Shown: positions 3,292 through 4,132 of the stretch, piece by piece
Layout of the letters: each line of letters opens with the position of its first letter
Numbering within the stretch: the stretch's first letter is position 1
Origin: a candidate division WOR-1 bacterium RIFOXYB2_FULL_36_35
GTDB lineage: Bacteria; Margulisbacteria; WOR-1; XYC2-FULL-46-14; XYC2-FULL-37-10
NCBI GenBank assembly: GCA_001771505.1
Contig: MEUA01000041.1
Location: 1-34,069, forward strand
Length of the DNA: 34,069 bases
Reading direction: 5' to 3'
The notes under the pieces: model-generated
What the model saw: the letters and a program-made list of their open reading frames with translations, nothing else
Database searches by the model: none
Told to the model about the DNA's origin: nothing
Translations under genes and position numbers: made by a program

Positions 3292-3399
3292 AAATGGATC
3301 CTTTCTCTTTGCTTGATTTTAGAGGCAAAGAAGAGAAACTGATTCTTACTTCAAACCAAATTATATCATTGAATGGAATGAGGGTAAACTGATTCTCTG

Positions 3400-4007
3400 G
3401 TAACTATTCAGTATTTCCAAATTTATCTATTTTTCCCTCACCCAACTATATCTTTATTCTATATTTCTAGTATATTCGCCCTCTCCCAGAGGTAGAGGGC
3501 ATTGAGGTTGACTCATAAGATATATAATTTATACTTAATCATTAAGAATTTTATGAGAGAAATTAAAAGAAATTTCGCAAGAGCTTTGAGAAAAAATCAA
3601 ACAGAACTAGAAAAAACTGTTTGGGGATTTTTACGTAATAGAAAGTTTATGAACCTTAAATTCAGAAGACAGCATGTAATAGAAGGCTTTGTCCTTGATT
3701 TTTATTGTCATTCCATAAAACTTGGCATTGAAATTGATGGAAATATACATTTAAAAAGAAAAGATTATGATAATTTGAGACAAGAAATAATAGAATCAAA
3801 AGGCATAACAATAATAAGATTCTCAAACAAAGAAATTGCAAAGGATAAAAGAATAATTTTAACAAAACTTTAAAAAATCATTGAATATTTAACAATCCCT
3901 CGCCCAAAGGGAGAGGGCGCATAAGCACAAAACAAATTAAATCCCATAAAAACTGGGTGAGGGCTGTTTTATTTGGCTTTTACCGTTTGGCAATACTGAA
4001 TAGTTAC
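3400..4007. mobile_element. 608-bp TIR element with DUF559 nuclease as its only gene
   Basis: The 22-bp terminal inverted repeats are at 3400-3421 (GTAACTATTCAGTATTTCCAA plus A, broken here for length) and 3986-4007; 21 of 22 positions match. The 8-bp direct repeat ATTCTCTG flanks the element at 3392-3399 and 4008-4015. Inside are two nested inverted pairs around the gene: CCCTCACCCA (3435-3444) with TGGGTGAGGG (3954-3963), and GCCCTCTCCC (3478-3487) with GGGAGAGGGC (3909-3918). There is no recognisable transposase. GTAA-type ends with 8-bp duplications are known from IS66-like elements, so trans-mobilisation is one explanation. Confidence 0.9.
3553..3873 (+). CDS. DUF559 family endonuclease-like protein
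   Basis: Small single-domain protein (106 aa from this ATG) of the DUF559 family, related to very-short-patch-repair/PD-(D/E)XK nucleases. Visible family features are 'NQTELEKTVWGFLRNRK', 'FRRQHVIEGFVLDFYC', the acidic 'IEIDGNIH' and 'GITIIRFSNKEI'. The E, D and E/H residues are consistent with a metal-dependent active site. An upstream TTG at 3502 would add 17 residues and has a GAGG-type site before it. I prefer 3553 because family members usually start near 'RxxAraLRKNqT'. It is the only gene in the 3400-4007 element. Its substrate and whether it moves the element are unknown. Confidence 0.88.
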   Translation: MREIKRNFARALRKNQTELEKTVWGFLRNRKFMNLKFRRQHVIEGFVLDFYCHSIKLGIEIDGNIHLKRKDYDNLRQEIIESKGITIIRFSNKEIAKDKRIILTKL

Positions 4008-4044
4008 ATTCTCTGAAATTGTAAAATTTAACCTCTATGATTAT

Positions 4045-4132
4045 GGGTCTGTTGCATAATGGTCATTCCCGTGTAGCTCCCCGCTTTCGCGGGGATGACA
4101 AATTGCAAAAACCGCTATTATGCAACAAGCCC
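4045..4132. repeat. 88-bp MITE-like element, copy 2
   Basis: Same sequence and orientation as 93-180 except for two adjacent bases (TT to CC near the right end). It is flanked by its own 5-bp duplication ATTAT (4040-4044, 4133-4137). Removing the element and one ATTAT restores GATTATGATAATCGG, identical to 222-236. This copy therefore jumped into one of the AATCGG palindromes. Confidence 0.9.

Follow-up and report, generated by a model that had tools for sequence, protein, structure and literature searches.

A DUF559 nuclease gene between mirrored hairpins in a candidate division WOR-1 bacterium suggests a RAYT-like partner for orphan palindromic repeats

Introduction

The stretch of DNA analyzed here (the window, 34,069 nucleotides of contig MEUA01000041.1 from the candidate division WOR-1 bacterium RIFOXYB2_FULL_36_35, assembly GCA_001771505.1) contains a gene for a DUF559 nuclease set between mirrored hairpins, and both the association of DUF559 genes with such hairpins and the mobility of the gene together with its ends are well supported. 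A first-pass annotation described a single 608-bp transposable unit running from one terminal inverted repeat (TIR) to the other. This unit is composed of two layers, a MITE-type shell and a core of hairpins and tails; the inner hairpin/tail pairs are a general feature of DUF559 units and the outer TIRs are not. These findings suggest that a widespread class of orphan palindromic repeats is moved by DUF559, as its hitherto missing partner.

The repeats in question are known as BoxC, PIT or TM elements, occur in more than 260 bacterial genomes and have been linked to genome rearrangement (PMC4666352). In E. coli K-12, Holder et al. (2015) described 23 TM repeats with no mobility gene nearby (PMC4666352). 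Independent hints of DUF559 activity come from Caulobacter, where the DUF559 protein VsrA is required for the SOS response in cells lacking cytosine methyltransferase and is proposed to act in mismatch repair (PMC12907096), and from evolving Legionella, in which segments carrying a transposase and DUF559 are recombination hotspots (PMC12308824). No paper joining DUF559 to inverted or palindromic repeats was found in the literature searched, which covered few subscription papers.

Structure of the unit

The window was scanned for 22-bp TIRs with at most one mismatch, lying directly inside an exact 8-bp duplication and 200-3000 bp apart. The sole match was the DUF559 unit, and the combination was found in 0 of 40 dinucleotide shuffles of the window. 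The features of the unit are as follows.

3392..3399, no strand: left 8-bp target duplication ATTCTCTG (exact-duplication/TIR scan)
3400..3421, plus strand: left outer 22-bp TIR, a MITE-type end beginning GTAACTATTCAG (sequence GTAACTATTCAGTATTTCCAAA)
3435..3443, no strand: tail motif CCCTCACCC of the left end, on the outer side of the hairpin at a distance of 35 bp
3479..3499, no strand: left hairpin CCCTCTCCC-AGA-GGTAGAGGG, a TM/PIT/BoxC-type repeat (hairpin search)
3553..3873, plus strand: DUF559 (PF04480) nuclease gene, 106 aa, with the conserved D49, E60, D62, H66 and D73 of its Vsr/EDxHD-like site intact
3897..3917, no strand: right hairpin CCCTCGCCC-AAA-GGGAGAGGG (hairpin search)
3955..3963, no strand: tail motif GGGTGAGGG of the right end, on the outer side of the hairpin at a distance of 37 bp
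3986..4007, minus strand: right outer 22-bp TIR (sequence GTAACTATTCAGTATTGCCAAA)
4008..4015, no strand: right 8-bp target duplication ATTCTCTG (exact-duplication/TIR scan)

The TIRs GTAACTATTCAGTATTTCCAAA (plus strand) and GTAACTATTCAGTATTGCCAAA (minus strand) agree at 21 of 22 positions. Within them the tails mirror each other (CCCTCACCC at 3435-3443 and GGGTGAGGG at 3955-3963), as do the hairpins (CCCTCTCCC..AGAGGG at 3479-3499 and CCCTCGCCC..GGGAGAGGG at 3897-3917), so that the TIRs, the duplication ATTCTCTG and the two nested inverted pairs reported at first pass were all confirmed. The only gene between the TIRs matches PF04480 with E=4e-32 and 110.7 bits, against a gathering score of 20.6. 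The unit had also been read as lacking a transposase, and this holds: the Pfam scan returned DUF559, a sub-cut-off match to REase_MTES_1575 and no Y1-type HUH tyrosine transposase. A structured-RNA reading was discarded, as the Rfam search matched no family at the unit and a hit to IRE_I at 3339-3382 scored under the cut-off. About 30 bp past the unit, at 4045-4132, lies another small palindrome of MITE-like form (GGGTCTGTTGCATAAT...ATTATGCAACAAGCCC), and a 93% copy of part of it adjoins a TIR/TM end in G071, a genome of the same family (locus L211).

The outer shell

The unit is short, bounded by TIRs and a target duplication, free of a transposase and furnished with recurring ends, as is expected of a MITE; this structure is exact in the window, and matching 12-bp ends recur in G071 and in MITEs of G014, a genome of the same phylum. 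Seven ends in G014 have the identical first 12 TIR bases and bound gene-less elements of ~208 bp, some with perfect 8-bp duplications (e.g., CAAAATTC and GAATAATC), and three further single TIR ends in G071 each adjoin a TM-type tail. The outer TIRs and the 8-bp duplication belong to a MITE family common to the G014 gene-less elements.

The window's TIRs are unique in the host genome even when 3 mismatches are allowed, and across the phylum they were found in few genomes only. The search of the host for the unit's repeats failed for the 22-bp ends and succeeded for the inner repeats, with 16 hairpins. The TIRs were rejected as the definition of a general DUF559 unit, since they are absent from every other DUF559 copy in the host.

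Ends starting GTAA are a trait of IS66 elements. The window unit resembles IS66 insertion sequences and their MITEs in having such ends and an 8-bp duplication; it differs in carrying no transposase, and the IS66 transposase (PF03050) has no match in the host genome (G000, 96% complete), G071 or G014. The first-pass suggestion that the unit rides on IS66 in trans is thus unsupported in the assembly and was rejected, and inspection of three IS66 loci from the phylum revealed no paired GTAACTATTCAG-like ends. The orthologous interval in G071 measures 222 bp vs 1,728 and holds no unit, and therefore the window insertion is probably younger than the split from G071, judging from a site that has diverged and also lacks the neighboring SDR gene. 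As a comparison of sites with and without the unit, this gives an unoccupied interval and no clean junction.

The hairpin/tail core in the host and in E. coli

The host genome contains 16 hairpins of the inner type, and a reversed-pattern control gave 0. Most of these TM hairpins are solo ends without a gene, and their tail stands on one side at a constant spacing of 33-37 bp. The inner hairpins and tails are also present at the other DUF559 copies of the host, which lie at the starts of contigs C29 and C37. C37 shares 213 bp at 96% with the end of contig C40, a match that reaches beyond the tail, and therefore a repeat containing the DUF559 gene probably broke the host assembly here; contig breaks also fall inside further host DUF559 units.

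These repeats resemble the BoxC/PIT/TM intrastrand-triplex repeats (Hoyne 2000; Holder 2015, PMC4666352) in their CCCTCNCCC..GGGNGAGGG hairpin and GGGTGAGGG tail and in being dispersed and intergenic. Against the Holder 2015 consensus, CCCTCNCCC N3-6 GGGNGAGGG N3 GGGNGAGGG, the sequences of the right end match and the left end nearly matches, with one stem change. The host repeat differs in flanking a gene and in having its tail 33-37 bp away rather than 3.

A partly comparable arrangement exists in E. coli K-12, where the DUF559 gene ycjD adjoins TM number 9. A different E. coli has a second TM-like copy immediately after ycjD, and the upstream palindrome differs, so that there is no simple mirrored pair. 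Phylogroups A, B1 and C have the gene, and the eef operon stands in its place elsewhere. Between lldD and trmL in E. coli genomes (L251-L257), a paired TM element is variously present, truncated, altered by another palindrome or absent. Beyond the enterobacteria, the palindromes that border a DUF559 gene in Sinorhizobium are found again in many replicons of rhizobia, and a DUF559 copy on a cyanobacterial plasmid sits amid GGGG/CCCC palindromes.

The nuclease

The DUF559 protein is predicted to be a Vsr/EDxHD-type (PD-(D/E)XK-like) nuclease. Its structural model has a mean pLDDT of 80, and the nearest solved structures are a Neisseria gonorrhoeae member of the family (3hrl) and then I-Bth0305I, an EDxHD homing endonuclease, in its catalytic domain; Vsr ranks lower. 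Residues D49, E60, D62, H66 and D73 do not vary among 37 relatives, and the conserved E, D, H and D (E60, D62, H66 and D73) accompany the catalytic-domain fold of I-Bth0305I (PDB 3r3p), which is matched by both profile (E=7e-5) and fold (TM-score 0.65). I-Bth0305I differs in being intron-encoded, with extra DNA-binding regions, whereas the DUF559 protein of the window is a bare, free-standing 106-aa domain with no intron. The Vsr mismatch endonuclease (1vsr/1cw0) belongs by fold to the same superfamily, as a weak match, and Caulobacter VsrA is itself a DUF559 protein; unlike Vsr and VsrA, the gene of the window is flanked by repeats.

Association of DUF559 with hairpins across bacteria

DUF559 is present in 39 of 74 genomes of the phylum, many of its loci having mirrored hairpins of several sequence types. 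The nearest named loci place the host with Candidatus Margulisiibacteriota/Saganbacteria. Scans of a wider collection yielded 81 loci, comprising one viral contig and 80 named genome loci from Margulisbacteria, Spirochaetes, Bacteroidota, Cyanobacteria, Chloroflexi, Acinetobacter and others, the 80 being biased to relatives of the window's clade because the scans used the narrower alignment A2 in place of A1, a deep alignment of excessive diversity. Inverted pairs that flank the gene and score at least 15 were found at 37 of the 81 loci and in 1 of 268 shifted windows taken from the same loci (p=3e-25). With 18 orthologous Acinetobacter loci removed the count is 32 of 63, and a sizeable share of DUF559 loci has no clear inverted pair. 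The idea that DUF559 genes rarely have defined ends is contradicted by these relatives, in which mirrored hairpins flank the gene across phyla. The reading of DUF559 as phage cargo was also rejected, as only 1 viral-contig and 2 phage matches were found.

The type of hairpin follows the type of enzyme. Mapped on the protein tree, hairpin class requires 13 changes vs 29.4 when shuffled (0 of 200 shuffles as low), and dispersed hairpin copies are in excess where the resident DUF559 gene carries the same hairpin (Fisher p=5e-4 and 4e-4), the tree and Fisher statistics both being inflated by the relatedness of the genomes. The TM hairpin occurs almost exclusively in the window's class and CTCCCCTTnnnAAGGGGAG in other classes, in complementary sets of genomes, and each matches the DUF559 flanks in its own genomes. 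Of 422 TM hairpins, 39 have a DUF559 gene no more than 350 bp away. The analogy with RAYT proteins and REP sequences drawn at first pass was accordingly borne out: inverted hairpins flank DUF559 in many phyla, and gene-less copies are found in the same genomes.

Several loci depart from the simple pattern. G054 has 45 TM hairpins and G067 has 36, neither with a DUF559 match, which may reflect gene loss, incompleteness or another mover. At L024 a tandem array of several TM ends with a ~70-bp period lies beside a DUF559 gene, and at L017 successive DUF559-sized intervals, each between TM ends, suggest tandem units in one genome. In Neisseria gonorrhoeae (L103) a ~100-bp repeat flanks the DUF559 gene in direct rather than inverted orientation.

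Mobility of the gene and its ends

Two pairs of loci hold near-identical copies of the core. At two sites of one genome (L073 and L078) the gene and its ends are 97% identical and the sequence outside is not shared; in another pair, ~12 kb apart within a single genome (L042 and L043), they are 92% identical with no flanking homology, and the homology begins at TCCTCACCCC and ends at GGGGGTGAGG, which are the end motifs. These pairs imply that DUF559 cores move without TIRs in other genomes. Comparisons in S. meliloti, E. coli, relatives of L078 and G071 gave no empty and filled site with precise junctions for the core: the S. meliloti difference is a partial deletion inside the gene, the E. 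coli pair is polymorphic with imprecise junctions, and the relatives of L078 lack right-flank synteny. A target duplication for the core was rejected, since the weak excess (mean 3.79 vs 3.27, with 1 of 300 shuffles as high) is confounded by common base composition.

In Acinetobacter the gene has been kept vertically, as 18 DUF559 loci occupy one orthologous site, and gene-less paired elements of ~130 bp with similar ends lie around it. This pattern resembles that of RAYT genes and REPINs. At L171 and L196, which belong to close species, a gene-less paired element occupies the same position upstream of DUF559 but points in opposite directions, as would result from a flip or from independent insertions.

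Interpretation and alternative explanations

The reading that we favor, with somewhat better than even confidence, is that the core is a minimal RAYT-like mobile system of nuclease and hairpins built on an unrelated enzyme, and that the outer shell is a MITE. In such a system one DUF559 gene would lie between two inverted ends, each a C-rich hairpin with an outward CTCACCC/GGGTGAG tail. The nuclease would recognize its cognate ends when folded (single-stranded, hairpin or triplex) and exposed at replication, and would nick the DNA at the tail or close to it; new copies of the unit, or of an end alone, would then arise at other sites through replication and repair by the host, and bare ends would be the dispersed TM/PIT/BoxC-type palindromic repeats. 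The window core would sit within a MITE shell that explains its latest insertion, probably through an unrelated transposase not found here. We infer the end recognition, the nicking and the role of the nuclease as mover. Weighing against this reading are the failure to find a precise empty site or a target duplication for the core, the vertical retention in Acinetobacter, the TM-rich genomes G054 and G067 with no DUF559 match, the DUF559 loci that have no clear inverted pair, and the mismatch-repair role proposed for Caulobacter VsrA (PMC12907096). The likeness to RAYT (TnpA-REP)/REP/REPIN 'REPtrons' consists of a small nuclease gene between inverted palindromic repeats, gene-less repeat copies dispersed in the same genome, a repeat type that matches the resident enzyme clade and a gene that is sometimes vertically kept. 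The differences are a Vsr/EDxHD PD-(D/E)XK-type enzyme in place of an HUH tyrosine transposase, a CTCACCC/GGGTGAG tail in place of GTAG, and a mobility deduced here from sequence comparison.

The main rival is homing, which we consider unlikely: a free-standing EDxHD-type DUF559 enzyme would cut hairpin repeats that already exist and are spread by another agent, and double-strand-break repair with the repeats as homology arms would copy the gene between them. The kinship with I-Bth0305I, an intron homing endonuclease and the closest solved relative besides the gonococcal family member, is consistent with this, as are the position of the gene between repeat copies, a core lacking both target duplication and transposase, a weak match to the PADLOC HEase model, and the Legionella DUF559-bearing repeats that are recombination hotspots alongside homing endonucleases (PMC12308824). 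However, the match of hairpin type to protein clade, and of gene-less copies to the resident gene, is left unexplained by homing unless spreading the repeats is also the work of the enzyme, and the sites of L042 and L043 have no common flanking homology.

It is improbable that a DDE transposase moves all 608 bp through the 22-bp ends as a MITE-like passenger, with DUF559 and its hairpins incidental. The perfect 8-bp duplication and TIRs, the G014 MITEs bounded by the same first 12 bases and with their own 8-bp duplications, and the three additional TIR ends beside TM ends in G071 all point that way for the last hop in the host. They do not account for the general association, as the TIRs are in no other host DUF559 unit and in few genomes of the phylum, and hairpins flank DUF559 across phyla; the host also has no IS66 transposase. 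Very improbable, in our judgment, is that the hairpins are terminators or regulatory palindromes of an immobile VSP-type repair gene. Such a gene would agree with Caulobacter VsrA, which is linked to DNA damage and for which a part in mismatch repair has been proposed (PMC12907096), and with the retention of DUF559 at one Acinetobacter locus, but not with hairpins and tails mirrored across the gene, numerous gene-less copies at other places and near-identical units of gene and ends at two sites. PIT elements, moreover, reportedly lack promoter or terminator activity (as cited in PMC4666352).

Conclusions

Extended beyond the window, the RAYT-like reading would make DUF559 nucleases dedicated mobilizers of a superclass of C-rich palindromic repeats across bacteria, and a second, independently evolved counterpart of RAYT/REP, a tentative proposal to which we give slightly less than an even chance. 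This superclass may include BoxC/PIT/TM in enterobacteria, the rhizobial and cyanobacterial palindromes and the paired elements of Acinetobacter. BoxC/PIT/TM repeats without a known mobility gene and DUF559 proteins without an agreed role are thereby joined in one testable hypothesis, and since the partner gene ycjD exists in E. coli K-12, it can be tested there. If true, it would describe a Vsr/EDxHD-type nuclease acting on hairpin or triplex ends.
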